Assembly: GCA_003216815.1 (NCBI GenBank)
Contig: QCIG01000012.1
Coordinates: forward strand, 1 to 55,253
Length of the DNA stretch: 55,253 nt
DNA from: Prochlorococcus sp. AG-402-K14
GTDB lineage: Bacteria > Cyanobacteriota > Cyanobacteriia > PCC-6307 > Cyanobiaceae
Direction of reading: 5' to 3'
In this document: positions 1,725 to 18,851 of the stretch, in pieces
How positions within the stretch are numbered: position 1 is the first letter of the stretch
How the letters are laid out: every line of letters starts with the position of its first letter
Notes under the pieces: generated by a model
What the model saw: only the letters and a program-made list of their open reading frames with translations
Told to the model about the DNA's origin: nothing
Database searches by the model: none
Program-made: the position numbers and the translations under genes

Positions 1725-1746
1725 CATTCCTACTCAATAGTTCCTG
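1725..1746. repeat. Short att-like copy of guaA 3' end (copy 1)
   Basis: ACTCAATAGTTCCTG at 1732-1746 matches guaA 3' coding sequence at 17273-17287 exactly. The few bases to its left match imperfectly. Only the guaA-internal part is kept; the 40-bp flank seen in the other copies is missing. It sits in the gap after the first cassette gene. Confidence 0.55.
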
Positions 1747-2067
1747 CCCAAATATTAATTATGATCCCTATCTTTCACTCAACTAATTTCACCTCAATTC
1801 TCGTGTCAAACAAGTAGAAGATATATTGATACTATGATATTTCCTTTTTAGACATTGATATAGAGATTACGTCAATCATGTTACGTCATATATCCATTCC
1901 GTGATTTTATCCCCTTGTCCTATGTTCTCTACGTAAAGAAACAATATAAAGATTTACTGTTAGAGTCAATTTAGAAGTTTCGGAATGACTGCTGACAAAG
2001 TTAACAAGAATAAGAATGAAAGTTAGTAGTAAAATAGTTGCAATCAAAAGAGAGAAAAGAACAATTA
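1747..2067 (+). promoter_or_regulatory. Type A cassette control region
   Basis: This 321-bp gap holds no gene. It aligns by eye with 8541-8815 upstream of the gene at 8816. Shared blocks include CACTCAACTAATTT-like, TTTTAGACATT, ATATAGAGATTACGT and the stretch around TTGTCCTATGTT. It ends in TTAGTAGTAAAAT. The hexamer TAAAAT at 2030-2035, 33 bases before the start codon, is a candidate -10 element found at a similar distance in the other cassettes. No clear -35 is visible. Transcription from here is inferred. Confidence 0.5.
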
Positions 2068-3666
2068 ATGAAATCGGATAAACAAGAGCAAAGAAACAAA
2101 AAGATCCCTGAAGTCAAAATATTTCCAGTTCCATTTGTTTTACAAAAAATCAAAGAAAAAATCAGTATTACTACTCATGTTTCTTCTAAAGAACAAATTA
2201 TAGATCAAGCATTAAAGTTTCATTCAGAAGGTAATATTTCAGAAGCCTCAAAATATTATCAACAGATCATAGCTCAAGGGTGCAATGATCACAGGGTTTT
2301 TTCTAATTTTAGTGTCATATTAAAAGGTCTGGGCAAATTACAAGAGGCAGAATTATCTCAACACAAAGCAATTGCACTTAATCCTAATTACGCAGAAGCG
2401 CATTCCAATCTGGGAAATATATTGAGAGATCTTGGCAGATTAAAAGAAGCAGAATTTTCTCTACGCAAAGCAATTGAGCTTAATCCTAAGTTAGCAGAGG
2501 CGTATTACAATCTGGGCAATATATTGAGAGATTTTGGCAGATTAAAAGAAGCAGAGCTTGCCCTAAATAAAGCAATTGAATTAAAACCAGATTTCGCAGA
2601 TGCACATACAAATCTAAGCCTCATATTTTTTGATCTTAAAAAGTTACTAGAGGCAGAAATATCTATTAAAAAAGCAATAGAACTTAATCCCAATTCATAT
2701 CAATCACATTTCATTTTGTCTAAAATTTTTATTGATAAAAATCAAGCTAAACAAGCAGAAAAATCTCTTCGTAAAGCTATTAAAATTAAACCTGACTATT
2801 ATAAAGCTTACTTAGAGTTAGAAGAATTATTAAATGAATTAACAAATTCAAAAACTTCAAAGAAAATTCAAAAAGAAGCAATAAGTCTGAATAAAAGTCA
2901 AAGGATCCAAAGATTAATTAGTAATGATTCTATGCTTCCAAAGTGTTGGTATACATCAATTGGATTCTTATATCAATTTAATACTATTAATCACTGGGTT
3001 CTAAGTCCTCCAAAGGCTGGTACATCATTGATATTTAATTCTTTACGTGAATCAGGAATTAATTGTCTCCATTTGCATAATGATTACAATATAAGAAAAT
3101 ATTGTCAGCTTTCATTACCTTTAAAGAAGTATAATATTAGTATTATTGATTTACTAAAATTTAGAGCTACTGCAAATAATAATACACTTAATATATATTT
3201 TGGTGTAAGAGATCCAATCTCTTGGACTATGAGTTTACAATCAGAATTATTTCCCTCTTCCTCTGAGGAAGAAATTAAAAATATTGCTCACAATATTAAT
3301 AGAGAAGAAATTAGAAAACATCTCCCAAGTGAAACTGTTCAAATCATCAATGAATATCTAGGGCACAGTATGCTGCAAAAACCATTTGATAAAATTAATG
3401 GTTTTTCAATATTTCAATATCAAAATACTAAGATTTACTTATATCGCCTTGACTCAATCGATAAAATAATAAATTACTTGGTTCAATGTAAAGGATTAAA
3501 TAAAAGTCTAAATACACGCAAGAATAAAAGAGTTAATTACCAAAATGCTCTAAGGAATACTAAGTTTGACAAAGATACTGTTACTAAATTACTTGCATTA
3601 CCTTATGTGAATCATTTTTTTAACGAAGATCAAATTCTCGAAATGAAGAACAAATATTTATTTTAA
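2068..3666 (+). CDS. TPR protein with sulfotransferase-like C-terminal domain
   Basis: I place the start at ATG 2068 rather than the upstream in-frame TTG 2038, because ATG 2068 aligns with the ATG of the MDSSS-type cassettes and lies after an AGAGAGAAAAG purine run. The product of about 532 residues has the shared leader (KIPEVKIFPVPFVL) and an amphipathic segment SKEQIIDQALKFHSEGNISE. Six to seven TPRs follow to about residue 275. The C-terminal domain has SPPKAGTSLIF at about residues 312-322, matching the PAPS 5'-phosphosulfate loop of sulfotransferases, and VRDPISWTMS near 378, matching the 3'-phosphate region. Sulfation of a glycan or protein is likely; the acceptor is unknown. A remnant of an FkbM domain lies just downstream, so this C-terminus appears to have displaced another. 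Confidence 0.8.
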   Translation: MKSDKQEQRNKKIPEVKIFPVPFVLQKIKEKISITTHVSSKEQIIDQALKFHSEGNISEASKYYQQIIAQGCNDHRVFSNFSVILKGLGKLQEAELSQHKAIALNPNYAEAHSNLGNILRDLGRLKEAEFSLRKAIELNPKLAEAYYNLGNILRDFGRLKEAELALNKAIELKPDFADAHTNLSLIFFDLKKLLEAEISIKKAIELNPNSYQSHFILSKIFIDKNQAKQAEKSLRKAIKIKPDYYKAYLELEELLNELTNSKTSKKIQKEAISLNKSQRIQRLISNDSMLPKCWYTSIGFLYQFNTINHWVLSPPKAGTSLIFNSLRESGINCLHLHNDYNIRKYCQLSLPLKKYNISIIDLLKFRATANNNTLNIYFGVRDPISWTMSLQSELFPSSSEEEIKNIAHNINREEIRKHLPSETVQIINEYLGHSMLQKPFDKINGFSIFQYQNTKIYLYRLDSIDKIINYLVQCKGLNKSLNTRKNKRVNYQNALRNTKFDKDTVTKLLALPYVNHFFNEDQILEMKNKYLF

Positions 3667-3720
3667 AAATATTTATATAATCTTATTATATGTCTCTCAA
3701 TATTAGTATTTAAAGCATAA

Positions 3721-3782
3721 ACAATTATGTTCGAAAGTAGATGATTGGTATGTTTTTGCCGAATAAATAAATTGAAAATCAA
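3721..3782 (+). pseudogene. Remnant of FkbM methyltransferase C-terminus
   Basis: Bases 3737-3782 match the end of the gene at 8816-10006 plus its 3' flank with a single mismatch that I can see. They read as a VDDWYVFAE-like end and stop codon (3764-3766), then AAATTGAAAATCAAG. Nothing upstream is an FkbM domain; the intact gene ending at 3666 is a sulfotransferase. This is the leftover 3' end of a previous C-terminal domain. Confidence 0.75.
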
Positions 3783-3799
3783 GTCATAAGAACTCTCTC

Positions 3800-3903
3800 C
3801 CAATAGATAAAAAATAAACCAACTTACAAAACTGGGAAAAGTTTGAGGAAAAAAAAACCAACACTTTAAAAGCAATGTATCAGTTCTCGGTTTGTAAAAC
3901 GAA
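3800..3903 (+). pseudogene. Remnant of methyltransferase C-terminal tail
   Basis: In one frame this reads NLQNWEKFEEKKTNTLKAMY and then QFSVCKT, against NLQNWAKFEEKHTNTFRAMY and QFWVCKT at the end of the methyltransferase gene at 6397-8373. The stop is lost, and the CAA of KKQTN has become TAA, a change shared with the remnants at 5887 and 10040. It lies directly after the FkbM remnant. Confidence 0.75.
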
Positions 3904-3935
3904 AATTTCACTACTTCCAGAGCATAAAAGTATTT

Positions 3936-4010
3936 GATTTTGTAGAGAAAATCATCATTCTACAATTCTCTATAGAGACGGTAAAAATGTCCTATACAAA
4001 ACCCACGTGA
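3936..4010. repeat. Conserved 3' cassette repeat (copy after gene ending 3666)
   Basis: This is a diverged copy of a block that starts TTTTGTAGAGAAAACCATC and runs through CTACGATTTCTCCATGGAGA to ACGGTAAAA and an ACGTGA-type end. It is followed by CAAAACCCT and the second ACGTGAAACC-type element. Better copies are at 6022, 8404 and 17089. Confidence 0.65.
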
Positions 4011-4074
4011 CAGCGACCCATCAAAACCCTACTTATATCACAATCATTCTTCTCATGTAAAAACCTAGGTGCAA

Positions 4075-4132
4075 CCATATAAATCAAATTATCACTAGAA
4101 AGTAGACGTTTCCGCTACTCCCATGCAATAGT
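4075..4132. repeat. 58-bp att-like repeat (copy 2)
   Basis: This aligns without gaps to 17225-17282, which spans the guaA stop codon. I count seven mismatches. The right-hand 18 bases correspond to the guaA 3' coding end, here with ATGC in place of ACTC. Confidence 0.75.
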
Positions 4133-4392
4133 CAATCGCAAAGGAGAGTCCCTAAACCCCAGTCATACCAACGGGTCTTTTCTTTGAAGATAGCACGTGA
4201 AACCCACGTCAAATCCAGTCGTGCCAATGGATAGCAAGGAAAAATATACTCAATAATGCTTTTGTAGAGAAATCAAATACAAATCTACTTATTATTCTCA
4301 CTCTATAAATGATAAATGATTTCAGAAAGAATTTATAAGGATTGAAATTAGTAGTAAAATAGGAAAAACCAAAAGAGAAAAGATAAGAGAAG
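4133..4392 (+). promoter_or_regulatory. Type B cassette control region
   Basis: This shares with 10374-10683 and 12498-12749 the blocks CAATCGCAAA, CCCAGTCATACCAACGGGT, a second CCCAGTCGTGCCAATGGAT, AAAAATATACTCAAT and TTTTGTAGAGAAAT. It then runs to GGATTGAAATTAGTAGTAAA just before the gene. TAAAAT at 4355-4360 is a candidate -10, 33 bases before the start codon. The segment with the CTCTACGTAGAG palindrome is absent here. Confidence 0.5.
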
Positions 4393-5850
4393 ATGGATAG
4401 TTCTAGTCAAGAAGAAGAAAGAAAGATAAAAATTACTGAGGTACAAACATTCCCAGTTCCATTTCCTTTAAAAAAAAATCAAGAAAATCGTACTATTAAT
4501 ACTCCTTCTACACCATCTAAAGAACAAATAATCAATCAAGCATTTAAGTTTCACTCACAAAGAAACATTTTAGAAGCAACAAAATATTATCAATATTTCA
4601 TAAATCAAGGATTCAAAGATCACAGAGTTTTTTCAAATTATGGAGGAATTTTAAGAGATCTTGGAAAGTTAAAAGAAGCAGAATTATCTTACCGCAAAGC
4701 AATTGAAATTAATCCTGATTACGCAGAGGCGCATTACAATCTGGGAAACACATTGAAAGATCTTGGAAAGTTAAAAGAAGCAGAATTATCTACTCGCAAA
4801 GCGATTGAACTTAAGCCTGATTTCGCAGAGGCGCATCTCAATCTTGGAGTGGTTTTAAAAGATCATGGAAAACTACAAGACGCAGAATTATCGTACCGCA
4901 AAGCAATTGAAATTAAGCCTGATTTCGCTGAGGCGCATTACAATCTGGGAATCGGATTAAAAAGACTTGGAAAACTACAAGACGCAGAATTATCGTACCG
5001 CAAAGCAATTGAAATTAAGCCTGATTTCGCTGAGGCCTATTCCAATCTAGGAACCATATTGATAGATCTCGGCAACATACAAGACGCAGAATTTTCGTAC
5101 CGCAAAGCAATTGAAATTAAGCCTGATTTCGCTGAGGCGCATTTAAATCTGAGCAGGATAGAGAATAAGAGTAGAATTGATATGGACTTCATCCAAAATA
5201 TTGATACTAAATATAAAAAAAATTGCTTAAAAAACTTAAGCCTTTCAAAATCACAATTTAGGCAAGATTTATTTGCTTTAAGTCAGTTACATTTTAAAAA
5301 AAATGGTTTTTTCGTAGAATTCGGATCTTGCGATGGTGTTGTTGGTTCTAATTCTTATTTATTAGAAAAACATTTTGATTGGGACGGAATCCTAGCTGAA
5401 CCAGCGATTTACTGGCATAACAAACTACAAGAAAATCGATCAGTAAATATAGAAACTAAATGTGTATGGAAATCATCTGGGCAAGAAATTTTATTTAACG
5501 AACCTGTCTCCAATAAAGGAATGGCTTCAATCACTATTTTTTCTGATGAAAATAAAGAATATTCTATGGAAGCGAATAAATATAAAGTTCAAACAATTTC
5601 ATTATTTGATTTGTTAGAGAAATACCAAGCACCAAAAACTATAGATTATTTATCTATAGATACAGAAGGCAGTGAATATGAGATATTAAAGGCATTTGAT
5701 TTTGATAAGTATAAATTTAGGGTAATTACTTGTGAACATAATTTCTCTCCTATTCGAGAGAAAATCTATGATCTTTTAATGAATAAAGGTTATACAAGAA
5801 AATCAACTCATATTTCAAGAGTGGATGATTGGTATGTTTTTGCCGAATAA
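4393..5850 (+). CDS. TPR protein with FkbM-type methyltransferase domain
   Basis: The product has 485 residues. The leader MDSSSQEEERKIKITEVQ and then FPVPFPL is typical of type B cassettes. After the conserved segment NILEATKYYQYFINQGF come six TPRs (about residues 75-270). Three of them are almost identical in DNA at exact 102-bp spacing. From about residue 289 the protein is an FkbM-like SAM methyltransferase: SQFRQDLFALSQLHF, FFVEFGSCDGVVGSN (SAM-binding glycine region), DYLSIDTEGSEYEIL near residue 418 and a terminal RVDDWYVFAE. FkbM enzymes O-methylate sugars and other metabolites, so a glycan target is plausible. The gene at 8816-10006 has the same C-terminal domain, with identical and divergent blocks alternating. 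The start ATG follows AGAGAAG. Confidence 0.85.
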   Translation: MDSSSQEEERKIKITEVQTFPVPFPLKKNQENRTINTPSTPSKEQIINQAFKFHSQRNILEATKYYQYFINQGFKDHRVFSNYGGILRDLGKLKEAELSYRKAIEINPDYAEAHYNLGNTLKDLGKLKEAELSTRKAIELKPDFAEAHLNLGVVLKDHGKLQDAELSYRKAIEIKPDFAEAHYNLGIGLKRLGKLQDAELSYRKAIEIKPDFAEAYSNLGTILIDLGNIQDAEFSYRKAIEIKPDFAEAHLNLSRIENKSRIDMDFIQNIDTKYKKNCLKNLSLSKSQFRQDLFALSQLHFKKNGFFVEFGSCDGVVGSNSYLLEKHFDWDGILAEPAIYWHNKLQENRSVNIETKCVWKSSGQEILFNEPVSNKGMASITIFSDENKEYSMEANKYKVQTISLFDLLEKYQAPKTIDYLSIDTEGSEYEILKAFDFDKYKFRVITCEHNFSPIREKIYDLLMNKGYTRKSTHISRVDDWYVFAE

Positions 5851-5886
5851 GTAAATTGAAAATCAAGATTCATAAGAACTCTCTCA

Positions 5887-5990
5887 CGAAAGATACAAAA
5901 TAAACCAATTTACAAAACTGGGCAAAATTTGAAGAAAAACATATCAACGCTTTCAGAGCGATGTATCAGTTCTGGGTTTGCAAAACGTAG
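5887..5990 (+). pseudogene. Remnant of methyltransferase C-terminal tail (best preserved)
   Basis: One frame reads NLQNWAKFEEKHINAFRAMY then QFWVCKT and a TAG stop at 5988-5990, almost identical to the true end of the gene at 6397-8373. Just upstream the KKQTN codon CAA is TAA, so the frame is closed. It follows a complete FkbM gene, which shows that the FkbM domain was placed in front of an older methyltransferase tail. Confidence 0.8.
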
Positions 5991-6021
5991 ATTTAAATAC
6001 TTCAAGAGCATAAAAATAGTT

Positions 6022-6100
6022 GATTTTGTAGAGAAAACCATCTTCCTACGATTTCTCCATGGAGACGGTAAAAGTGTGCCACGTAAAACGCACGTAAAAC
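6022..6100. repeat. Conserved 3' cassette repeat (copy after gene ending 5850)
   Basis: This is a close copy of the block at 17089-17163: TTTTGTAGAGAAAACCATC, CTACGATTTCTCCATGGAGA, CGGTAAAAGTGTGCCACGTA. Beyond it the expected 58-bp att-like block is missing. The second ACGTAAAACC element (about 6138) joins directly to AAACCCAGTTTTACCAATGG, as expected for a deletion between short repeats. Confidence 0.75.
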
Positions 6101-6147
6101 TGACACTTCAAAACCCTAGTTATCTCCTCATCAGACCTCTCACGTAA

Positions 6148-6396
6148 AACCTAAGTAAAACCCAGTTTTACCAATGGATTACAAGGAAAAATATACTCAA
6201 TGATGTTTTTGTAGAGAAGTCACCAAATATGCTTCTATCACCTTGTCACCTGCTCTCTACGTAGAGAAATAATATACAGACCTACTTTTATTCTCGCTCT
6301 ATAAGTGGTAAATGATTTCAAAAAGAATTAATAAGGATTGAAATTAATAGTAAAATCGGAAGAACCAAAAAGAGAGAAAAGAAAAGAGAGGATAAG
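6148..6396 (+). promoter_or_regulatory. Type B cassette control region
   Basis: This starts at the second CCCAGT element and runs through AAAAATATACTCAATGATG and TTTTGTAGAGAA. A perfect 12-bp palindrome CTCTACGTAGAG lies at 6255-6266. It ends with GGATTGAAATTAATAGTAAA. TAAAAT at 6351-6356 is a candidate -10, 41 bases before the ATG. Apart from the weak methyltransferase tail and repeats described separately, the gap 5851-6396 holds no gene. Confidence 0.5.
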
Positions 6397-8373
6397 ATGG
6401 ATAGTTCTAGTCAAGAAGGAGAAGAAAAGAAAAAAATTACTGAGGTGAAAACATTACCAGTTCCATTTGCTTTAGGAGAAATAAAAGAGAATATTTCTAT
6501 TGCCACTAACACTCCTTCTCAAGAACAAATAATTAAGGAAGCATTTGGTTTCCATTCACAAGGAAACATTTCAGAAGCAGGACAACTTTATCAAAATCTC
6601 ATAAATCAAGGATTAAAGGATCACAGAGTTTTTTCTAATTATGGAGTCATATTAAAAAATCTTGGCAAATTACAGGACGCAGAATTTTCTACTCGCAAAG
6701 CAATTGAACTGAATCCTCATTTTGCAGATGCTCATTCAAATCTTGGAACCATATTAAGAGATCTTGGTAAATCACAAGATGCATTAAATTCTTACCTTAA
6801 AGTAATAGAAATAGATCCAACCAATTCAAATATTTATCATTTAATTATTAAACTTCTAAAATCCTTAGATCTTTCTAAATTTAATCAATCCAAGTTAAAA
6901 GAAATATTAAATCTATTATTAGATAAAAATAATTTTCCACATAAAGAATTATCTAAATTATTTCATTTTTTATATAGCAATGAAATAATTGAAAATCTAC
7001 AACGATTTGAATCTTCTTTCTTTAAAGAAGATTCATTAACAATATTCTTCAATAATAAAACTATAATCAATGCACTTAGAAAGATACCTTTTAAAGGTAT
7101 TAGATTGGAAAAAATCCTAACAAAAACAAGAAAGTATATATGCGGTAGCATTTCAGAAAATAAAAAAGGAATAGGTTGCTCGCAATTAAGATTTATTATT
7201 GCATTAGGAGAGCAATGCTTTCTGAATGAATATATTTACTCATGCAGTCAAGAAGAAAAGACATCTATTAATAAAATAATTACTAGATGTATAGATGGTA
7301 AATTAAATGAAAAAAATATTTCAATTTTATCTTGTTATTTTCCATTATATAATCTGCTTGATCAAATACCATCTTTAAAATCATTTAATTCGTCTAAAAG
7401 TTATTTTAAAGAACTAATGATATTACAAATATCTGAACCTCTAAAAGAAATTGAATTATCTAAAAATATAAAAAAATTAGGTACAATAAAAAATCATATT
7501 TCAAAAAAAGTAAAATCTCAATATGAAAAAAATCCATATCCTAGATGGAGAGATGGCAATCCTTTCAAAGAGAAAAAGTTTTCTATTAATAAAGCAATTA
7601 ATGATGAAATATACCCTAATTACAGAAATCTAAGTTTAAATAAAAAACAATTAAAAATTCTAGTTGCTGGATGTGGAACTGGTCAACAGATTTTACAATC
7701 ACAAAGATATCAAAATGCTCAAGTGACAGGCATAGATTTAAGTTTATCTAGTCTTTCTTATGCTCAAAGAAAAATAAATGAACTTAAGATTGATAATGTT
7801 CAACTTATTCAAATGGATATATTAGAAGTTAATTTATTAGAGGAAAAATTTGATATTATTTTATGTTCAGGAGTTTTACATCATATGGAAGATCCCTTGA
7901 AAGGTTTGAAAGCATTATTAGGTATTTTAAAACCTAATGGATGTCTCAAACTCGGTCTATATAGTGAATTAGCAAGAAAAGACATAGTTAAAGCAAGAGA
8001 TTATATAACTACTAACAATTTTGAAGCAAATAATGAGGACATAAAACGTTTTCGAGAGGATGTTTTTTCTAGCAAAATCAAACAAATAAGTAATCTTAGT
8101 AATTGGGGTGATTTTTATACGATGTCCGAATGCCGGGATCTTTGCTTCCACACCCAAGAACATAGATTCACAATTCACGAACTGCAAGAAACTCTCCAAT
8201 CTAATGAATTAGAATTTCTTGGATTCTTACTTCAACAACCTGTTAAATCTCTTTATCAAAACTATTTCCCAGAAGATAAAAAGCAAACAAACTTACAAAA
8301 CTGGGCAAAATTTGAAGAAAAACATACCAACACTTTCAGAGCGATGTATCAGTTCTGGGTTTGCAAAACGTAG
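6397..8373 (+). CDS. TPR protein with class I SAM-dependent methyltransferase domain
   Basis: The product has 658 residues. The leader MDSSSQEGEEKKKITEV and then LPVPFAL is followed by only two or three TPRs (about residues 75-150). Next comes a long helical linker of unrecognised character (about 150-375). The methyltransferase has ENPYPRW near residue 378, motif I ILVAGCGTGQQIL near 420, GIDLSLSSLSYAQRK, and ILCSGVLHHMEDPLKGLKAL near 488, matching Methyltransf_11/12-type enzymes. The end, LQNWAKFEEKHTNTFRAMYQ then FWVCKT, is intact here. The same tail survives only as decayed fragments behind five other cassettes, which makes this the best candidate for the ancestral C-terminus. The substrate is unknown; peptides, glycans and small molecules are all possible. 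Confidence 0.85.
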   Translation: MDSSSQEGEEKKKITEVKTLPVPFALGEIKENISIATNTPSQEQIIKEAFGFHSQGNISEAGQLYQNLINQGLKDHRVFSNYGVILKNLGKLQDAEFSTRKAIELNPHFADAHSNLGTILRDLGKSQDALNSYLKVIEIDPTNSNIYHLIIKLLKSLDLSKFNQSKLKEILNLLLDKNNFPHKELSKLFHFLYSNEIIENLQRFESSFFKEDSLTIFFNNKTIINALRKIPFKGIRLEKILTKTRKYICGSISENKKGIGCSQLRFIIALGEQCFLNEYIYSCSQEEKTSINKIITRCIDGKLNEKNISILSCYFPLYNLLDQIPSLKSFNSSKSYFKELMILQISEPLKEIELSKNIKKLGTIKNHISKKVKSQYEKNPYPRWRDGNPFKEKKFSINKAINDEIYPNYRNLSLNKKQLKILVAGCGTGQQILQSQRYQNAQVTGIDLSLSSLSYAQRKINELKIDNVQLIQMDILEVNLLEEKFDIILCSGVLHHMEDPLKGLKALLGILKPNGCLKLGLYSELARKDIVKARDYITTNNFEANNEDIKRFREDVFSSKIKQISNLSNWGDFYTMSECRDLCFHTQEHRFTIHELQETLQSNELEFLGFLLQQPVKSLYQNYFPEDKKQTNLQNWAKFEEKHTNTFRAMYQFWVCKT

Positions 8374-8403
8374 ATTTAGTTACTTAAAGAGGATGAAAAT
8401 AGT

Positions 8404-8480
8404 TGATTTTGTAGAGAAAACCATCTTTCTACGATTTCTCCATGAAGACGGTAAAAATGTGCCACGTGAAACCTACGTGA
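8404..8480. repeat. Conserved 3' cassette repeat (copy after gene ending 8373)
   Basis: This is a very close match to 17089-17163, ending CCACGTGAAACCTACGTGAA. The 61-bp segment between the two CACGTGAAACC elements of the 17.1-kb copy is missing here, so the repeat runs straight into the att-like block. Confidence 0.8.
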
Positions 8481-8482
8481 AA

Positions 8483-8540
8483 CCATAAAAATCAAGTTAT
8501 CACTGGAAAGTAGACGTTCCCGCTACCCTCACTCAATAGT
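8483..8540. repeat. 58-bp att-like repeat (copy 3)
   Basis: This aligns without gaps to 17225-17282 around the guaA stop codon, with five mismatches by my count. ACTCAATAGT is identical to the guaA coding end. Confidence 0.8.
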
Positions 8541-8815
8541 TTCTAGCCCAACTATTCCTTGTAATCCCTGTTACTCACTCAACTAATTTTCTCTCAATTC
8601 TCGTGGGAAACGTATGGGAAACGTGTAGGAGACATTTTTGCCCTTTTATATTTCCGTTTTAGACATTCATATAGAGATTACGTAAATCATATTACATCCT
8701 GTTTCCATCCGATAATTTTATCCCCCTTGTCCTATGTTTTCTACATAGAAATAATATGAGAAGTCAAATTTGAATTAATAGTAATATGACTGGAGATTTA
8801 GAGTCCAAAAGGAAA
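8541..8815 (+). promoter_or_regulatory. Type A cassette control region
   Basis: This is homologous to 1747-2067. TAATAT at 8782-8787 occupies the position of the TAAAAT candidate -10 of the other cassettes. It overlaps the in-frame ATG at 8786, which argues against that ATG as the start. No gene is present in the gap. Confidence 0.5.
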
Positions 8816-10006: not shown

Positions 10007-10039
10007 ATAAATTGAAAATCAAGATTCATAAGAACTCTT

Positions 10040-10143: not shown

Positions 10144-10176
10144 AGATTTAACTACTTCCAGAGCATAAAAATAGTT

Positions 10177-10315: not shown

Positions 10316-10373
10316 CAATATAAATCACGTTATCACTGGAAAGTAGACGTTCCCGCTACTCCCACTCAATAGT
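10316..10373. repeat. 58-bp att-like repeat (copy 4)
   Basis: This aligns without gaps to 17225-17282, with four mismatches by my count. The last 18 bases, CTACTCCCACTCAATAGT, are identical to the guaA stop codon and preceding five codons. Confidence 0.85.
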
Positions 10374-10683: not shown

Positions 10684-12219
10684 ATGGATAGTTCTAGTCA
10701 AGAAGGAGAAGAAAAGAAAAAAATTCCTGAGGTGAAAACATTCCCAGTTCCATTTTCTTTAGGAGAAATCAAAAAAAATATAACTCTTACTACTAACACT
10801 CCTTCTAAACCTTCTAAAGAACAAATAATTAATCAAGCATTTAAGTTTCACTCACAAGGAAACATTTCAGAAGCAACAAAATATTATCAATATTTCATCA
10901 ATCAAGGATTCAAAGATTACAGAGTGTTTTCTAATTATGGAACAATTTTAAAAGATCTTGGCAAATTAAAAGAGGCAGAAGTATCTACTCGCAATGCCAT
11001 TAACCTGAATCCTAATCTGGCAGTTTTACATTACAATTTGGGAAACATATTAAAAGATCTTGGCAAATTAGAAGAAGCAGAATTGTCATATCGCAAAGCA
11101 ATTGAAATTAAACCAGATTACGTAGAAGCGCATTACAATCTGGGAAATATATTGAATGATCTTGGTAAATTAAAAGAATCAGAAATGTCATATCGCAAAG
11201 CAATTGAAATTCAACCTGATTACGCAGAGGCGTATTCTAATCTAGGAAATATATTAATTGATTATAGAAAATTAGAAGAAGCAGAAAAATCACTACATAA
11301 AGCATTGGAATTAAATCCTAAAAATGAATCTATTAAGAATAACTTAATAAATTTACTAACTATATACAAACCAAAAAATATTGAATCAGACTTGTTGTAT
11401 ATGATAAATGAAGAATTCAAAGAAATAAATCTTTTTCATAAAGAGAATTTTCTTATAACTGATAATGAAGCGATAAGAATTTATCAAGATGGACTTGAAA
11501 TTTATAAAAAATATAATTTAAACTTAAAAACAGATTTCTCACAAATATATAAAAGAAATGAAGTGAATTTAAATTGTAAGAGGCACAAACTAATATTCAA
11601 TACACATAAAGTAATTCCTGAATTTTGCTTTGGGTGTTATAAGGTTCAAGTTGAAGTAGGTTCAATAATTGAATTAATTAAACTATTTTTAGTTTTCAAT
11701 CAGTTAAAACTTAAAAATAATAATACTAGAAAATCTATTATTGAACTCCGTACTAATATCTCAGGATTTTATAAAGGACTGATATATTGTTTAAGTCTAA
11801 CTGAAGCATTAGCAATATCTAAAAAGTTAAATGTTCATATTCAGAATAATATTAGAATTGATTTAATGTCAAAAGTAAAAAGAGGATGTTCTGAGTATCC
11901 ACTTGAGTTCCCGAAATACAAAGAGATAAGCACTTCTGGTGATCAACCAATGAATTACAATGTGAACTGGAGAACTATTGAAAAAGAAGTAGATCAAGGG
12001 AACAAAAATTGGGGTAAATGGAGCAAAAGTATAGAAGGATTTAATTTAAATTACTTTCTTATAATGAGAAACTGGATCGCATATGCGCAAAAGATAGGAG
12101 ATCAAACTGTAAGTAAAATTACTAATGAACAAATAAAAGGACCCAAATTTTTCCAGAATTTGAACAGGGACTTTACTCCGAGCAAACCTCCAATACAAAA
12201 ATTTCATCCCTCTTTATAG
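10684..12219 (+). CDS. TPR protein with unrecognised Cys-containing C-terminal domain
   Basis: The product has 511 residues, with leader MDSSSQEGEEKKKIPEVKTF and PVPFSL. Four to five TPRs cover about residues 80-235. The following 275 residues match no domain I can name. Visible features are NCKRHK near residue 298, HKVIPEFCFGCYKVQVEVGS near 307-326, ELRTNISGFYKGLIYCLSLT near 352, and a polar basic end KPPIQKFHPSL. The four cysteines in NCKRHK, FCFGC and IYC could bind metal, but no standard motif is present. Its place among glycosyl-, sulfo- and methyltransferase cassettes suggests an enzyme acting on the same class of target; that is inference. A degraded methyltransferase tail follows directly. 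Confidence 0.75.
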   Translation: MDSSSQEGEEKKKIPEVKTFPVPFSLGEIKKNITLTTNTPSKPSKEQIINQAFKFHSQGNISEATKYYQYFINQGFKDYRVFSNYGTILKDLGKLKEAEVSTRNAINLNPNLAVLHYNLGNILKDLGKLEEAELSYRKAIEIKPDYVEAHYNLGNILNDLGKLKESEMSYRKAIEIQPDYAEAYSNLGNILIDYRKLEEAEKSLHKALELNPKNESIKNNLINLLTIYKPKNIESDLLYMINEEFKEINLFHKENFLITDNEAIRIYQDGLEIYKKYNLNLKTDFSQIYKRNEVNLNCKRHKLIFNTHKVIPEFCFGCYKVQVEVGSIIELIKLFLVFNQLKLKNNNTRKSIIELRTNISGFYKGLIYCLSLTEALAISKKLNVHIQNNIRIDLMSKVKRGCSEYPLEFPKYKEISTSGDQPMNYNVNWRTIEKEVDQGNKNWGKWSKSIEGFNLNYFLIMRNWIAYAQKIGDQTVSKITNEQIKGPKFFQNLNRDFTPSKPPIQKFHPSL

Positions 12220-12224
12220 GAAGC

Positions 12225-12335
12225 ATTTCCCCGAAGATAAGAAACAAATTAACTTACAGAACTGGGAAAATTTGAAGAAAAACATCCCAATACCTTCGCA
12301 GGAATGTAGCAGTTCTGGAGTTCTAAAAAGGAGAA
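12225..12335 (+). pseudogene. Remnant of methyltransferase C-terminal tail
   Basis: This reads FPEDKKQINLQNWEN in one frame and then, after a one-base shift, EEKHPNTFAGM, a stop, and QFW. It matches the end of the gene at 6397-8373. The KKQ codon is intact here. HPNT(F/L)AG is shared with the remnant after 14508, so these two form a second subgroup. Confidence 0.75.
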
Positions 12336-12361
12336 TTGACAACTTCCAGAGTAAAATATTT

Positions 12362-12439
12362 GCTTTTGTAGAGAAAAGAATCTTTCCACGATTTCTACAT
12401 AGAGACGGTAAAAGTGTGCCACGTAAAACCTACGTGAAA
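12362..12439. repeat. Conserved 3' cassette repeat (copy after gene ending 12219)
   Basis: The order is TTTTGTAGAGAAAAGAATC, CACGATTTCTACATAGAGAC, GGTAAAAGTGTGCCACGTAA and AACCTACGTGAAAC, running straight into the att-like block. The 61-bp middle segment is missing, as in the copy at 8404. Confidence 0.75.
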
Positions 12440-12497
12440 CCATATAAATCAAGTTATCACTGGGAAGTAGACGTTTCCGCTACTCCCACTCAATAGT
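12440..12497. repeat. 58-bp att-like repeat (copy 5)
   Basis: This aligns without gaps to 17225-17282, with four mismatches by my count. CTACTCCCACTCAATAGT is identical to the guaA 3' coding end. Confidence 0.85.
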
Positions 12498-12749
12498 CAA
12501 TCGCAAAACAGCACCCTCAAACACCAGTCATACCAACGGGTTTCTACTTTGCATATGGCACGTGAAACCCTGTCATGCCGATGGATTACAAGGAAAAATA
12601 TACTCAATGATGCTTTTGTAGAGAAATAATATACAGACCTACTTATTATTCTCGTTCTAATAAGTGATAAATGATTTCATAAAGAATTAATAAGGATTGA
12701 AATTAGTAGTAAAATCGGAAAAACCAAAAGAGAGAAAAGACAAGGGAAG
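12498..12749 (+). promoter_or_regulatory. Type B cassette control region
   Basis: This is homologous to 10374-10683 but shorter. The segment between two GTAGAG copies, which carries the palindrome, is missing, so TTTTGTAGAGAAATAATATA is continuous. TAAAAT at 12710-12715 is the candidate -10, 35 bases before the start. No gene is present. Confidence 0.5.
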
Positions 12750-14508
12750 ATGGATAGTTCTAGTCCAGAAGAAGAAGGAAAGAAAAAAATTACTGAGGTA
12801 AAAACATTCCCAGTTACATTTCCTTTCAAAGGAGACCAAGAAAATCTTACTATTAAGACTAATAAACCCTCTAAAGAACAAATAATCAATCAAGCATTTA
12901 AGTTTCACTCACAAGGAAACATTTCAGAAGCAACAAAATATTATCAATATTTCATCAATCAAGGATTCAAAGATTACAGAGTGTTTTCTAATTATGGAAC
13001 AATTTTAAAAGATCTCAAAAATTTAAAAGAAGCAGAATTATCTACTCGCAAAGCAATTGAACTTAATCCTGATTTCACAGAAGCGCATTACAATCTGGGA
13101 AATATATTGAGTGATCTAGGCAAATTACAAGAAGCAGAATTATCTACTCGTAAAGCAATTGAACTTAATCCTGATTTTGCAATGGCGCATTCCAATCTGG
13201 GAAATATATTGAGTGATCTAGGCAAATCACAAGAAGCAGAATTATCTACTCGTAAAGCAATTGAACTTAATCCTAATTACGCAGAAGCGCATTTCAATCT
13301 GGGAATCATATTGAAAGATCTTGGAAACTTACAAGAAGCAGAATTATCTACTCGTAAAGCAATTGAAATCAATCCTGATTTCGCTTAATCCTAATTACGC
13401 AGAGGCGCATTTCAATCTGGGAATCATATTGAAAGATCTTGGAAACTTACAAGAAGCAGAATTATCTACTCGTAAAGCAATTGAAATCAATCCTGATTTC
13501 GCAATGGCATATTTTTATCTATCGACTCTTCAATATTCTAATAAAAATATAATATGGAAGGAACAACTTTTTTCTGACAGTATATTAAAAAACAAATCAC
13601 AACAAGATTTGGTTAATATTTACTTCGCAAGAGCAAATATTCTTCATAAGGAAAAAAAATACGAAGACAGTTCTAAATTTCTAACATTGGCGAATCAATT
13701 AAACCTTAATCTTAACCCATCTAAAGCATATAGTTTAATCAATCAATCTAAAGTATTGCTTATTGAATGTGATAAACAAGAAATTAATAAAAAAGAAAAC
13801 AGAAACTCATCTGATAGTATTTTTATTGTAGGAATGCCTAGAAGTGGTTCTACATTATTAGAATCAATTCTTAGTATGCGCAATGATGTATATGATCTAG
13901 GCGAAATTAATATTCTAGAGGAATTATTCATAGAGTGTAAGAAGTCTAAACAAGATACAAATCTTGGCAAACTATATGAGGGAAAAATAAATAATAAGAC
14001 GGATTTTAGTCTCACAACTAACAAATGGTTATATAACTACCAATACGCAGGTATTATTGCTAGGCATATACCAAACGCAAAAATTATTCATTGTTTTCGC
14101 CATCCTTTGGATAATATTCTTTCAATTTACCGAACACATTTTTCTAAAGGAAATGAATATTCCTCATCCTTAGTAGATTGCGCAAAAGTTTATTTAGATC
14201 AAGAGGCAATAATGACAGAATATAAGAAGAGATTTAGATCAAAAATATACGACATAAATTATGATTTATTAGTAAGCAATCCTAATCAACAAATTCAATC
14301 TTTGCTCTCTTGGTTAGGTTGGGAATGGAGCGATTCATATCTAGAACCACATCTGAATCCACGCTCAGTTTCAACAGCAAGTAGTGTTCAAGTCCGTTCC
14401 CCAATTAATTCAAAGTCAATTGGTGGATGGAAAAACTACGCAAATATGCTGAAACCTGCGATTGAAATCCTTACTCAAACTGATAGATATAAAGACATCG
14501 CTTCCTAA
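12750..14508 (+). pseudogene. TPR protein with sulfotransferase domain, frameshifted by a tandem duplication
   Basis: The first part (leader MDSSSPEEEGKKKITEV, FPVTFPF and four TPRs) stops at TAA 13386-13388. The second part continues in another frame from about 13387 to 14508. It holds one more TPR, a short helical region and a sulfotransferase domain with VGMPRSGSTLLES near 13828 and FRHPLDNILSIYRTHFSKGN near 14096, typical of PAPS-dependent sulfotransferases behind TPRs. The break is caused by an almost perfect 118-bp tandem duplication (13266-13383 and 13384-13501), one TPR unit plus 16 bp. Removing one copy restores a single frame of about 546 codons. It is either a recent pseudogene or a reversibly switched gene. 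A downstream reinitiated product is possible but has no good start. Confidence 0.8.
13266..13501. repeat. 118-bp tandem duplication inside TPR gene
   Basis: The unit 13266-13383 repeats at 13384-13501. I see one difference (GCAGAAGCG against GCAGAGGCG). Because 118 is not divisible by three, the second copy shifts the frame. The 102-bp TPR period cannot explain 118 bp, so this was an out-of-register event. Confidence 0.9.
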
Positions 14509-14512
14509 TAAC

Positions 14513-14592
14513 AACTTACAAAAATAGGCAAAGTTTGAAGCAAAACATCCAAATACCCTTGCAGGTATATCTCAGTTCTGGGTTTGGAAAAC
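14513..14592 (+). pseudogene. Remnant of methyltransferase C-terminal tail
   Basis: One frame reads NLQK, a stop, then AKFEAKHPNTLAGIS and QFWVWKT, homologous to the end of the gene at 6397-8373. It follows the sulfotransferase cassette and is then interrupted by the metalloprotease gene region. Confidence 0.7.
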
Positions 14593-14632
14593 GGAGATTT
14601 GACTACTTCACAAATATAAAAATATTTTGGTT

Positions 14633-14708
14633 TTGTAGAGAAACCATTTCAAGCAAAATCTATACAACATAGAATTGCTATATAATAAAAAAATAAAGTC
14701 ACTTAATA
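14633..14708 (+). promoter_or_regulatory. Junction of interrupted 3' repeat and upstream region of the metalloprotease gene
   Basis: TTTTGTAGAGAAACCAT at the left matches the first bases of the conserved 3' cassette repeat, then sequence diverges. A perfect TATAAT at 14681-14686, 23 bases before the ATG, is a candidate -10; I see no convincing -35. The rest of the 3' repeat resumes only at about 17089. Confidence 0.45.
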
Positions 14709-17015
14709 ATGTGTTTTATTTGCAGCGAGTCAAAAGGTTTCGAAACTAATCTTGCGACAATTATCGAAATAAATCAGACTCCAACATTAGAAGTCAGCAA
14801 AAATACATTTTCCACGCCAACAAAACCAGTAATCACTGATTCTAATGGGAATAAATATACCTTTAATATTGTTGGTCTTGACCAAACATCTTCTCTTTAT
14901 AGTGGAATATATTTGAATTCAGTCAAAGGAATTGAATATATATCGAGCAAATTCAAATGGAAAGGAACCATTGATTTTGTTGTTAAATACGAAGAAAATC
15001 CTCCATCAAATTGGGATGCAACTGATCCAAAAAATAATTGGACAGATCGAGGATTTGGTGGATATGGAAACACTGATGAAGCATTATATGAAATCACAAC
15101 TGGTATTGATCGATATACAGGAGTAACCGGTTGGGATGACACTCTTTATAATTTAGATTATGACATAGGTTCTTTTATTTTCCCCAGTCCATATTCTTCT
15201 ACTAAATTATATAATTATACTTATGAAGTTTTTATAGATGAAAATCCTATCGCCGAACTAGATTCAGCAGTTCCTTCAAATACTCATGATTATTTTAGTT
15301 TATTTCTTCATGAAACTGGACATGGAATGGGAGTTCATCCAGACAATACAACTTTTACTAATTTAATACAAGAAATCAATGGTACCGATTATTTCACAGG
15401 GGAAGCAGCAGTATCAATCAATAATGGATACATAGAAGTTGTAGATAACAAGACTCATTTTTTATATGAAGAAAATAATGGAGAAATATATGATTTAATG
15501 GGATCAACTAAAGGGTATAGACTTTATGAACAAAATAGGTTCACAATAACGAAACTAGATCAAGCAATATATGGTGATCTTGGATTTGGAATATTATTAG
15601 ATGGAGACAATACTAATGAAAACTATATTGGGGGTTTAGGAGACGATATAATTAATACATTTGGAGGAAATGATGTAATCAAAGGTAGAAGTGGAGACGA
15701 TATAATAAATGGTGGAGATGGATCAGATAAATTTATACTTTCAGGTCCAAAGAGTTATTATACTGTAAGTAAAATAGATGATAATAAATACAAAATTATA
15801 GATAATATAAGTAATGATGGTACTGACGAAGTTACCTCGATTGAAACACTAGAATTTTCGGATCAAATACTGATTTTAGATCCAGCACCAACAGATATAC
15901 AATTATCAAAATCAAGTTTCAATGAAAATATTTCTGATAATTCAATAATTGCAAATCTTTCAAGTTCAGATTCAACTTCAAATGATAATCATACGTATTC
16001 TTTAGCAAGTGGATCTGGTGATACAGATAACAGTTTATTTTCTATTAATGGAACATCTTTAAAAATCAAAACTTCTCCTGATTACGAAACAAAATCTTCT
16101 TACGCAATCCGAATCCAATCAACTGATAGTCATGGAAATAATTACTCAGAAGCATTCACGCTGTTAGTTAATGATATCGAAGTAGAATTTATAGCAACAA
16201 TTTCAGGCACATCCCGTAATGACAATCTAGAAAGTACTAGTAGTAATGATTCAATCGATGGAGGACAAGGGATCGATACCATTGCTTTTACTGGCAACTT
16301 CTCCAGTTATTCCTTTACACGTGGCACAGACACACTAGAAATCGCTGATCAACGAACAACAGGAACAACCGACGGCACTGATACTCTCAAAAATATCGAA
16401 TACATTCAGTTCTCCGATCAAACCGTAGAAGAATCCAAAGTAGACGTAGTGAAAACTTATAGCGGTGAATTTAGTGATTACAAGTTCTATAACAAAGGTA
16501 ATGGTGTCTATCAAATCAAAACTGATTCTGGTTATGACGACATCACTGGTCTTCCGTTATTGACCTTTACAGGAGAAGCAACAACCAGTTCCTTTAAAGA
16601 CATCAGTGCCATTGTTGATATTAAAGGAACGTTTGATCTAGTGACTGGATTGAATACTGATTCTGGACGTATGTTCCGCCTATATAACGCATCATTTAAA
16701 CGTTTACCTGATCCTGATGGATTGGAGTATTGGATTAATCAGTTCAGTTCTGGAGCAAACACCATCAGAGTTGTTGCTTCTTCATTTTTAGGTTCTGGTG
16801 AATTCGCTGAACGATATGGTAGCAATGTCACTGATGAAACCTTTGTAAATACTCTCTATAAAAACGTCTTAGGCAGAGATGCTGATCCAGATGGATTGAA
16901 CTATTGGTTAGGTCAATTAAATAGTGGTGCTGAAACACGATATGAAGCACTACTTGGGTTTGCAGAGTCCGCAGAAAACAAAGCACTATTTACTGACATG
17001 ACTGGATTTGGTTGA
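14709..17015 (+). CDS. RTX metzincin-like protease with cadherin-like and DUF4214 regions
   Basis: The product has 768 residues and no clear signal peptide. HETGHGMGVH at residues 201-210 completes HExxHxxGxxH, the metzincin zinc site. DLMGS near 262 fits the Met-turn. GGxGxDxxx-type calcium repeats lie at about 308-340 (GGLGDDIINTFGGNDVIKGR and GGDGSD). A cadherin-like segment follows at about 395-490, then a second short RTX-like part. Two DUF4214-like motifs lie near the end (RLPDPDGLEYWINQF, NVLGRDADPDGLNYWLGQL). RTX proteins usually leave the cell by type I secretion and bind calcium outside, so this is probably an exoprotease or surface protein. Its insertion splits the conserved 3' cassette repeat, so it was probably added to the array later. 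Confidence 0.8.
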   Translation: MCFICSESKGFETNLATIIEINQTPTLEVSKNTFSTPTKPVITDSNGNKYTFNIVGLDQTSSLYSGIYLNSVKGIEYISSKFKWKGTIDFVVKYEENPPSNWDATDPKNNWTDRGFGGYGNTDEALYEITTGIDRYTGVTGWDDTLYNLDYDIGSFIFPSPYSSTKLYNYTYEVFIDENPIAELDSAVPSNTHDYFSLFLHETGHGMGVHPDNTTFTNLIQEINGTDYFTGEAAVSINNGYIEVVDNKTHFLYEENNGEIYDLMGSTKGYRLYEQNRFTITKLDQAIYGDLGFGILLDGDNTNENYIGGLGDDIINTFGGNDVIKGRSGDDIINGGDGSDKFILSGPKSYYTVSKIDDNKYKIIDNISNDGTDEVTSIETLEFSDQILILDPAPTDIQLSKSSFNENISDNSIIANLSSSDSTSNDNHTYSLASGSGDTDNSLFSINGTSLKIKTSPDYETKSSYAIRIQSTDSHGNNYSEAFTLLVNDIEVEFIATISGTSRNDNLESTSSNDSIDGGQGIDTIAFTGNFSSYSFTRGTDTLEIADQRTTGTTDGTDTLKNIEYIQFSDQTVEESKVDVVKTYSGEFSDYKFYNKGNGVYQIKTDSGYDDITGLPLLTFTGEATTSSFKDISAIVDIKGTFDLVTGLNTDSGRMFRLYNASFKRLPDPDGLEYWINQFSSGANTIRVVASSFLGSGEFAERYGSNVTDETFVNTLYKNVLGRDADPDGLNYWLGQLNSGAETRYEALLGFAESAENKALFTDMTGFG

Positions 17016-17088
17016 TTCATAGAGTGTGTTTGTTGTAGAGAAATCATACATAAACAACAAGTTCTTAGAAATCAAAAAAAGACTCCCA

Positions 17089-17163
17089 AGTGTAGAGAAA
17101 ACTATCTTTCTACGATTTCTCCATGGAGACGGTAAAAGTGTGCCACGTGAAACCTACGTGAAA
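17089..17163. repeat. Conserved 3' cassette repeat (guaA-proximal copy)
   Basis: This is the best-preserved copy: GTAGAGAAAACTATC, CTACGATTTCTCCATGGAGA, CGGTAAAAGTGTGCCACGTG, AAACCTACGTGAAA. GTAGA and TCTAC could form a weak hairpin, but no U-tract follows, so I do not call a terminator. Copies lie after most cassette genes. Confidence 0.8.
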
Positions 17164-17224
17164 GCGACCCATCAAAACCCTAATTATATCGCTATTAATC
17201 TTCTCACGTGAAACCTACGTGAAA
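17144..17224. repeat. Pair of identical 20-mers, 61 bp apart
   Basis: CACGTGAAACCTACGTGAAA occurs at 17144-17163 and again at 17205-17224, identical. Each contains the CACGTG palindrome and two ACGTGAAA words. In the gaps after 8373 and 12219 only one copy remains and the 61 bp between are gone, as expected from recombination between the two. Confidence 0.8.
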
Positions 17225-17282
17225 CCATGTAAATCAAGTTATCACTGGAAAGTAGACGTTCTCGCTACTCCCACTCAATAGT
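17225..17282. repeat. 58-bp att-like block overlapping the guaA 3' end (reference copy)
   Basis: The right 18 bases (17265-17282) are the guaA stop codon and codons for TIEWE, and the left 40 bases are downstream of guaA. Gapless copies at 4075, 8483, 10316 and 12440, and a partial copy at 1725, separate the TPR cassettes. No integrase gene is present in the window. Confidence 0.8.
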
Positions 17283-18851
17283 TCCTGGGGGTTTGCTTGT
17301 TATATCGAAAACAACTCGATTAACACCGCCAACTTCATTGACTATACGATTAGAAATTTTCTCTAAAACTTCATATGGCAAACGAGACCAATCAGCAGTC
17401 ATTCCATCTTCACTTGAAACACAACGAAGAACTATAGGCCATGCATAGGTTCTCTGATCTCCCATCACGCCAACTGAATATACAGGCAGCAAAACAGCGA
17501 AAGCTTGCCAAATGTCATGATACAAACCAGCATTATTGACCTCTTCTCTGACAATTAAATCAGCATCCCTCAAACAATTTAATTTTTCATGATTCACTTC
17601 CCCTAAAATCCTTATAGCCAATCCTGGACCTGGAAATGGATGTCTTCGGACAATCTCATCGGGTAATCCTAATGATTTACCAACTTTTCGTACTTCATCT
17701 TTAAATAAACGTCTCAAGGGCTCTACCAATTTAAATTGTAAATCTTTTGGTAACCCACCTACATTATGATGACTTTTAATTTTAACCGCTATTCGTTCCC
17801 CTGTTTTTGGATCAATATTTGTTCCAGCACTTTCAATAACATCTGGATAAAGTGTCCCTTGAGCCAAGTAATCAAAAGGGCCTAGACGAAGACTTTCCTC
17901 CTCGAAAACCCTAATAAATTCTTTCCCTATAATTTTACGCTTTTGCTCAGGATCTGTGACTCCTTGCAATTTTGAAATAAATCTTTCTCTAGCATTGATG
18001 TATTCAACATTTATATTAAACTTTTTATCGAAAAAAGACATAAGAAATTCCGGCTCACCTTTTCTCATAAAACCTTGATCAATAAACATACAAGTCAATT
18101 GAGGGCCTATTGCTTTATTCAATAAAAATGCAAGTGTTGATGAGTCAACACCACCCGAGAGAGCTAATAAAACTTTTTTATCTCCTACCTGTTGCTGTAC
18201 TTGAGAAACTGCCTCATCAATGAATAAATTTGTTGTCCAATCTGGCTCACATGAACAAATATGATACACAAAATTTCTTATTAAAATCATTCCCTGAGTG
18301 GAATGAACCACTTCAGGATGAAATTGCACTCCATAAAACCTCTTCTCATGCCAAGCAATAGCTGCTTCTGAAGTATTAGAAGTATGAGCTAATCTGACGA
18401 AGCCCTTTGGTAATTCTTGAACTGAATCTCCATGACTCATCCACATCGTAGACCCACTCAAAACACTGGTTAATAAAGCTGTTGGATCATCAACTAATAA
18501 AGGAGCTTTTCCATATTCGGCTTTTCCAGTTGCAGGCTTAACAGAACCACCTAACTGATGAACCATTAATTGCATTCCATAACAAACACCAAGAACTGGA
18601 ACACCTAAATTAAAAATTTCTGGATCACAATATGGAGCACCCTCTTCATAAACTGACCCAGGTCCTCCGCTTAAGATGATTCCTTTGGGCTGGAGTACCC
18701 TCAATTGATCAGCAGACGTTGTGTAACTCATAACTAATGAATAGACCTCGGTCTCCCTTACCCTTCGAGCAATTAGTTCTGAATATTGAGACCCAAAGTC
18801 GAGAATGACGATTGCTGGATTACGTTTTTCGTCTGAAATAATTGAAGTCAT
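17265..18851 (-). CDS. guaA: GMP synthase (glutamine-hydrolysing)
   Basis: This enzyme converts XMP to GMP with ATP and glutamine, the last step of de novo guanine nucleotide synthesis in the cytosol. Length is 528 residues, normal for the family. The N-terminal glutamine amidotransferase has [11 protein letters not shown] (catalytic Cys) and VQFHPEV (catalytic His). The ATP-pyrophosphatase domain has the PP-loop ALSGGVDSS. The C-terminal dimerisation part ends with KPPGTIEWE. Its last six codons (including stop) are the part repeated across the island to the left, so guaA borders the accessory island and stays intact. It lies 69 bp downstream of cbiD on the same strand. Confidence 0.97.

Follow-up and report, generated by a model that had tools for sequence, protein, structure and literature searches.

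The guaA locus and its repeats

The window considered here is a whole stretch of 55,253 nucleotides from Prochlorococcus sp. AG-402-K14 (contig QCIG01000012.1), in which the 3' end of guaA, the gene for GMP synthase, is repeated between genes for TPR proteins. An initial annotation had described a 58-bp block spanning the guaA stop codon as recurring in the manner of serial attachment sites. The block (17225-17282) comprises the final 18 coding bases of guaA (17265-17282; Thr-Ile-Glu-Trp-Glu-stop) and the 40 bases downstream of them (17225-17264). When both strands were searched with it, allowing up to 24 mismatches, gapless copies were recovered where they had been placed, at 4075 (7 mismatches), 8483 (5), 10316 (4) and 12440 (4), and the window held no additional matches at that threshold. 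The 18 coding bases are unaltered in two copies, as had been noted (10356 and 12480). Where a partial copy had been reported at 1725, the 18 bases are indeed present with 3 mismatches (1724-1741), but the downstream arm differs from that of the block. BLAST E-values for the block within the same genome range from 5e-27 (guaA itself) to 4.5e-15, and 2 more copies lie between TPR genes on contig C47. Since contig C12 starts within TPR sequence and C47 ends in a TPR gene, the array was probably split between these contigs by assembly.

The intergenic DNA flanking the block (~230 and ~250 bp) and the 5' halves of the TPR genes are also repeated, mostly at 72-93% identity, and the 58 bp are therefore the best-conserved portion of a longer repeated junction. 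Read along guaA, the junction consists of a left arm, the 18-bp core ACTATTGAGTGGGAGTAG (the guaA end) and a right arm. Within the 58-bp block, the recombination core is confined to the 18 coding bases; the remaining 40 are not guaA sequence but a right arm of type A, one of several that can be exchanged. Many arms carry two ~11-bp direct repeats (iterons) ~40-60 bp away from the core, examples of such pairs being GTTTCACGTAG-GTTTCACGTG, GTTCCCCGTAT-GTTCCCCGTG and GTTTTGTGCGG-GTTTTGTGTG. In 15 stretches totalling 404 kb, own genome included, the core was found 53 times at <=3 mismatches, 11 of these being guaA itself, and always on a single strand per stretch. Two Markov shuffles of the same stretches gave 0 matches at this threshold and 1 per shuffle at 4 mismatches. 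Within the window the core by itself is less decisive: it has 5 further copies at <=3 mismatches, and among 41 window ORF ends one other (in a TPR repeat) also has 5 copies and three have 3.

Distribution and recombination at the core

A 63-bp query matched 34 of 41 own-genus genomes; completeness is 90% or more in 17 of the 41, and 16 of these were matched. When 400 family genomes were searched for the exact pattern, 15 of these 17 gave at least 2 copies, and genera with genomes of ~2-4 Mb (taken as Synechococcus-like) nearly always gave one copy or none, as counted by eye. The core (<=3 mismatches) was present in 36 of 37 own-genus stretches, on a single strand in each, and followed the guaA strand in all of those that hold guaA (25/25). 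Cores with arms also lie beside guaA in 20 stretches from other genera, all on the guaA strand wherever guaA is present; these stretches (G051 and others) were picked for at least 2 pattern copies and show occurrence, not frequency. One of the other genera with such repeats, g18, is presumed to be high-light Prochlorococcus. The expected variation in cassette number between strains was found, in that nine own-genus genomes have from 1 core (G001, in which the region is rearranged) to 13 (G006).

Four core matches were dropped before cassettes were counted and linkage was tested, two being in open reading frames (ORFs) and devoid of arms (G003, 7099; G030, 9717) and two outside arrays (G004, 19820; G005, 68611). 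The intervals between cores that were counted as cassettes number 87, and 12 of them are only 110-194 bp long, barely more than both arms, which suggests that arms and core may suffice as the requirement in cis. G004 has a further core with arms between two TPR genes at C1:1525378; guaA is ~167 kb away from it and the array's last core ~133 kb. It is a candidate for a secondary site or a translocated cassette pair.

The core, the arms, their linkage, the position of the crossover and the orientation of the cassettes were computed directly. Arms were classified by their likeness to references chosen by hand, which gave six classes of right arm and seven of left arm, and linkage was tested over 123 cores, with those whose flanks are cut by a contig end excluded; 13 right and 9 left arms were unclassified and were omitted from the tests that needed them. 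Position 1 of the core is informative on the left arm only, and positions 15, 17 and 18 on the right arm only (each 0/500 permutations). In guaA itself, position 15 is G with 10/10 type-A arms and A with 8/8 type-B arms. The two arms that meet at a core, left and right, are independent of each other (n=80, p=0.149), whereas the right arm with which a cassette starts and the left arm with which it ends are linked (n=75, 0/10000 permutations, p<1e-4). It follows that cassettes are inherited units and that the joints between them arise within core positions 2-14, CTATTGAGTGGGA, which includes GAGTGGGA, published as the integrase site in guaA. The selection of cores as near matches accounts in part for the low variation at positions 2-14; it does not affect the linkage result.

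The iterons at opposite ends of a cassette agree more closely than when ends are permuted (74 cassettes, 0/5000, also within right-arm classes), an interior control giving p=0.92. Among array ORFs of >200 aa that resemble the TPR proteins of the window, 82/82 face guaA, or follow its strand where guaA is off the stretch. The further a core lies from guaA, the more mutations it tends to have at positions 2-14 (68 cores in 20 arrays; Spearman 0.42, p=0.0012 by permutation within arrays), as would be expected if new cassettes come in at guaA; the coefficient drops to 0.37 without G006.

We consider it likely that gene cassettes have integrated in tandem at a guaA attachment site and that the integrase-less cassettes of the resulting array are mobilised by autonomous guaA-specific elements. 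The serial integration at the guaA 3' end put forward by the initial annotation is supported by the variation in cassette number, by arms that recombine freely at the core and yet are linked within a cassette, and by a tyrosine integrase directly behind guaA in relatives. In the proposed mechanism, a tyrosine integrase would recombine two 18-bp cores, one on an incoming circle made up of left arm, core and right arm with two ~11-bp tandem iterons per arm, the other at the guaA 3' end. Their crossover would occur inside CTATTGAGTGGGA and guaA would be restored with the last codon letter and stop codon of the newcomer, the older core being displaced away from guaA so that the array would grow on its guaA side. 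Most cassettes would be cargo without an integrase, mobilised by autonomous relatives that use the same kind of ends and are predicted to encode an integrase, a replication-type protein, a primase-like protein and a resolvase. Three parts of this mechanism are inferred: that cassettes excise and circularise, that they are mobilised (in cis or in trans), and which way the array grows.

A wider interpretation is advanced tentatively, as a possibility: that guaA harbours an integron-like system, a polarised array with the newest cassettes by guaA, which collects and trades small cassettes of TPR surface-modifying enzymes and of restriction-modification genes through a family of guaA-specific integrases acting in trans, with the paired iterons serving as address codes. 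Both ends of one cassette tend to bear the same iteron variant and neighbouring cassettes can differ, and different integrase arm-binding domains may therefore each move their own subset of cassettes.

The features of the window are listed in Table 1. Cassette 4 may be read as two earlier cassettes merged through loss of a core. The TPR-sulfotransferase gene of cassette 1 occupies two overlapping frames (12750-13388 and 13321-14508); either the TPR repeats contain a frameshift or the assembly is in error here.

Table 1. Positions of guaA, cores, arms and cassettes in the window
Feature	Position	Strand	Remarks
guaA, GMP synthase, 528 aa	17265..18851	-	Host gene; 3' end is the attachment site
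18-bp core at guaA 3' end, attachment site	17265..17282	-	Crossover region is core positions 2-14
Right arm, type A	17206..17264	-	Start of cassette 1; tandem iterons 17206-17225
Cassette 1	12498..17264	+	TPR-sulfotransferase gene (12750-13388 + 13321-14508) and RTX/cadherin/DUF4214 gene 14709-17015
18-bp core	12480..12497	-	0 mismatches; L1 left arm on its right, A right arm with iterons 12421-12440 on its left
Cassette 2	10374..12479	+	TPR gene 10684-12219; iterons match at both ends (12421-12440, 10436-10455)
18-bp core	10356..10373	-	0 mismatches
Cassette 3	8541..10355	+	TPR-FkbM methyltransferase gene 8786-10006
18-bp core	8523..8540	-	2 mismatches; left arm L3, right arm A with iterons 8464-8483
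Cassette 4	4133..8522	+	TPR-methyltransferase gene 6397-8373 and TPR-FkbM gene 4393-5850
Fused junction	6136..6165	-	Left-arm iteron abuts right-arm iteron; core gone
18-bp core	4115..4132	-	2 mismatches
Cassette 5	1742..4114	+	TPR gene 2038-3666; weak NKWYS (capsule) C-terminal match under curated cut-off
18-bp core	1724..1741	-	3 mismatches; left arm L3-like, right arm C-like (by eye)
Cassette 6	1..1723	+	Open at contig start; TPR gene 47-1687

The cargo of the window comprises TPR-FkbM methyltransferases (2 genes), a methyltransferase, a sulfotransferase, a weak capsule match and an RTX/cadherin/DUF4214 protein, and that of contig C47 a TPR protein with glycosyltransferase 41. In a hand-picked set of other strains, cassettes carry a type I methyltransferase with a Schlafen domain and a ResIII helicase (G003; PADLOC gave no match to the helicase at 1e-10), a type I restriction set (G384), a cytosine methyltransferase (G381), type IIG-like enzymes (G374) and a helicase-nuclease (G023). 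The cargo thus resembles cell-surface enzymes or phage defence, and the array likely serves in the swapping of surface and defence genes. In G006, G005, G003 and G029, a 120-aa gene with no assigned function (cluster c10) closely precedes a core whose left arm is of L5 type; it is located elsewhere in G007 and some others. The G312 array (oriented 13429-21491) encodes several small TPR-like proteins that begin with a similar hydrophobic segment (MKKRTAFIGAILSL) and are unlike the TPR enzymes of low-light strains; similar small proteins are found in G118. A 193-aa serine resolvase is situated inside guaA cassettes of G104 and G153, beside small genes resembling those of low-light arrays.

Integrases, autonomous elements and alternative explanations

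The tyrosine recombinase anticipated near the array is absent from the located own-genus arrays, bar a remnant in G006, but is present behind guaA in relatives. PF00589 (Phage_integrase) had no match on the array stretches of 15 of 16 own-genus genomes examined (several are drafts, and the array of G014 was not located), and the array is thus not borne by one integrase-bearing element. In the genome of the window itself, PF00589 matches are confined to other contigs. Among 14 other-genus genomes, the array contains a PF00589 match in one, G312, the first cassette of which is a 7.6-kb element with a 457-aa tyrosine integrase adjoining the right arm. The profiles matched by this integrase are PF00589, phrog_1 and phrog_216; none was matched by the 78-aa protein next to it. 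The element further encodes a resolvase, a DUF5906 protein that weakly matches primase, and a protein whose match to REP_ORF2-G2P is weak and below cut-off. Elements of G051, G225 and G289, like that of G312, encode a tyrosine recombinase.

Relatives of the integrase were detected by protein search in 18 of 400 genomes, the G006 remnant being one of them. Ten of these genomes (G312, G225, G293, G051, G289, G049, G284, G331, G117 and G251) have the match on the guaA strand, beginning 191-350 bp behind the gene, with stops in the integrases of G117 and G251. G318 has integrase fragments with no guaA within the 16 kb fetched, and G338 a weak match with no guaA within 12 kb; the matches in G355, G239, G221, G170 and G152 are weak, guaA adjacency having been scored in the other 13 genomes. 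The autonomous relatives at guaA and the ends they share with cassettes were computed directly. The G051 element measures 8759 bp between cores. Its right end is 97% identical over 72 bp to that of cassette G004_46881_55123 (median of all long cassettes, 58%), and its left end over 100 bp is 89% identical to that of cassette G027_10415_12918 and 83% to that of a G012 cassette (median of all long cassettes, 52%). A protein search gave no match to the guaA-adjacent integrase in G004 or G027. These shared ends appear to tie the integrase to the passive cassettes.

In an AlphaFold model of the integrase, residues 10-95 form four strands and a helix (predicted local distance difference test score, pLDDT, ~60-82), weakly compatible with an arm-binding domain at the N-terminus. 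A profile search of solved structures retrieved the integrase chains 3nkh (E 2e-7) and 6en0 (E 2.2e-7), the latter of which we take to be Tn1549 Int. Foldseek comparison of the model gave Cre as best match (E 0.067), followed by a staphylococcal integrase (E 0.12), and was set aside because the model is too poor. CTACCCCGTG-like iterons accompany the integrases of G049, G284 and G331, whose N-terminus is distinct, and GTTTCAC-like ones accompany most others; it is possible, with phylogeny uncontrolled, that arm-binding domain and iteron co-vary. Viral contigs had no match to three arm patterns and phage records none to one 80-base attachment sequence, and a search of viral contigs for the integrase gave one pattern match, none being confirmed.

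Several observations weigh against a mobile cassette array of this kind. There is no integrase in the window, and the own genus has yielded one decayed guaA-integrase remnant, inside the G006 array, so that mobility may be rare at the present day. No circular form is seen. The two ends of the G051 element match different cassettes, the best single ones being G012 (68% and 83%) or G027 (63% and 89%), and the integrase model as a whole is poor (pLDDT 55). A cassette common to G017 and G034 has a body ~98% identical, compared with 82% for guaA, and an exact boundary at the distal core alone, its first ~110 bp (the right arm) being different; as proof of core-to-core transfer, it was weakened by this finer comparison. 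Cassettes of G020, G022 and G029 likewise have bodies in common and arms that are not. Cargo therefore also shifts between arm sets by another route, probably homologous recombination, and as at least one junction (6136-6165) has lost its core, such recombination shapes the array as well. Finally, the arm classes stem from hand-chosen references and the cores were chosen as near matches.

It is quite unlikely that the array expanded solely by RecA-dependent tandem duplication and unequal crossing-over of a single unit that had captured the guaA end, with no integrase at work after the first event. The paralogy of TPR genes and intergenic DNA along the array, the core lost between iterons at 6136-6165 and the cassette bodies found with different arms are in its favour, and duplication of a captured unit, one of the growth routes in the initial annotation, has probably contributed, as indicated by the paralogous TPR genes and the lost core. 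Nevertheless, duplication by itself leaves unexplained the independence of the two arms that meet at a core. The linkage between the ends of a single cassette, the switch of linkage inside the 18-bp core, unrelated cargo (restriction-modification genes, integrase elements) between the same cores, cassettes of 110 bp and the likeness of other genera at the same site also speak against it.

A conserved ~390-aa tyrosine recombinase, encoded by a fixed chromosomal gene, might instead act in trans on integrase-less cassettes in an integron-like fashion, which we regard as unlikely. It occurs in 16/16 own-genus genomes examined (by length; ten confirmed by BLAST) and has a relative in 24/25 other-genus genomes (in G118 and G051 only by weak partial matches); the sole Phage_integrase match has this length in 5/16 own-genus genomes, and array strains devoid of the guaA-type integrase still carry it. 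However, it is also found in larger genomes with one guaA pattern copy (G048, G063), no core at <=4 mismatches is present in ten ~3.4-kb stretches around it, and a guaA-adjacent integrase family with matching ends exists. The gene is presumably placed between hemH and cobO, as its neighbours were read from two loci; in L077, where the recombinase gene is at 817-1995, these read as hemH and a cobO-like gene. A serine resolvase, considered as a common recombinase, was rejected as it is missing from 7/17 genomes. That the repeat is a conserved RNA or terminator element of convergent genes, with only incidental likeness to the guaA end, is highly improbable: it does lie between convergent genes at guaA, and short inverted repeats were seen by eye in some arms, but there is no Rfam match at the gathering threshold and no tRNA in the window, core alleles track the right arm, in guaA too, and the core holds the published guaA integrase site.

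Comparison with known systems

Literature searches, which did not cover Hackl 2023, found no report of islands at guaA in Prochlorococcus. The array bears on the ways in which the most abundant phototroph of the ocean acquires surface and defence genes. With its presence throughout the own genus and in several other Prochlorococcus-like genera, a mapped crossover, minimal cassettes of 110 bp and an identifiable integrase, it opens to experiment the questions of which cassette is moved by which integrase and at what rate, also when phages exert pressure. Each insertion appears, moreover, to rewrite the stop and the last codon letter in a conserved metabolic gene.

In integrons, small cassettes without their own integrase are added by a tyrosine recombinase, at attC sites with a GTT crossover. 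The guaA array differs in that no integrase lies beside it and that a core with arm-type repeats takes the place of attC; GTT is on neither strand of CTATTGAGTGGGA (positions 2-14), and no attC search program was run. Islands of the GIsul2 type that are specific to guaA carry their own integrase, often P4-type with AlpA. Insertion in the window and its relatives is at GAGTGGGA of guaA, as for such islands. The GIsul2 integrase acts at GAGTGGGA in guaA and moves a second unit too (PMC9376610), and the repeat of ICERspD18B is ACAATNGAGTGGGAATNNTT (PMC7775301). Both resemble the present system in the guaA target, in GAGTGGGA within the core and in integrase-driven site-specific recombination, but they are 15-28 kb islands with their own integrase in gammaproteobacteria, and the relevant passages describe no multi-cassette array (PMC9376610, PMC7775301).

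In Dehalococcoides, islands also stand in tandem behind ssrA, which is present in a single copy, and the repeats at their borders correspond to the last 20 bp of this gene; the alignment over several strains comprised 28 of these repeats, and 15 islands without an integration module were proposed to be cis-mobilizable (PMC3146451). Their target is a tmRNA gene, their recombinase a serine recombinase and their cargo reductive dehalogenases (PMC3146451), whereas the guaA array has a guaA target, a tyrosine integrase, cassettes down to 110 bp and paired arm iterons. The additive flexible genomic island of Methylopumilus resembles the guaA array in having repeats of the end of its target gene (the last 20 bp) and variable content (from 330 bp up), but the target is tRNA-Lys, and arms and crossover are not mapped in the passages concerned (PMC10872708).

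Accretion of cis-mobilizable elements (CIMEs) typically gives a tandem of few islands. The guaA array, in contrast, has up to 13 cores, cassettes of mostly one to few genes, and a distribution over a whole lineage. Its cassettes keep at both ends cores that match the guaA end, no integrase is found inside the located own-genus arrays, the G006 remnant excepted, and some cassettes have ends in common with an integrase-bearing element (G051). CIMEs have lost integration and transfer genes, have kept attL and attR, and are in tandem with relatives (PMC5704250), a description that would also suit the guaA cassettes; those of the window hold only the genes given in Table 1.

The integrative elements of Prochlorococcus described so far, among the passages of the source, are tied to tRNA genes (PMC10872708). 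Such tycheposons have a tyrosine recombinase, carry cargo, and are bordered by tRNA genes (7 of them) and 4-200 kb in size (PMC10872708). The guaA elements share with them the host group and the carriage of cargo, and a tyrosine recombinase is encoded by the G312, G051, G225 and G289 elements but not in the window; the guaA array differs in its site, a protein gene, in being mostly integrase-less and in a window that contains no tRNA. By inference, the autonomous guaA elements resemble small relatives of tycheposons. Prochlorococcus thus seems to gather genes at a protein gene and not at tRNA genes alone. Tandem accretion behind a target gene, guaA as a target and tRNA-linked elements in Prochlorococcus are known already; their combination appears to be new.

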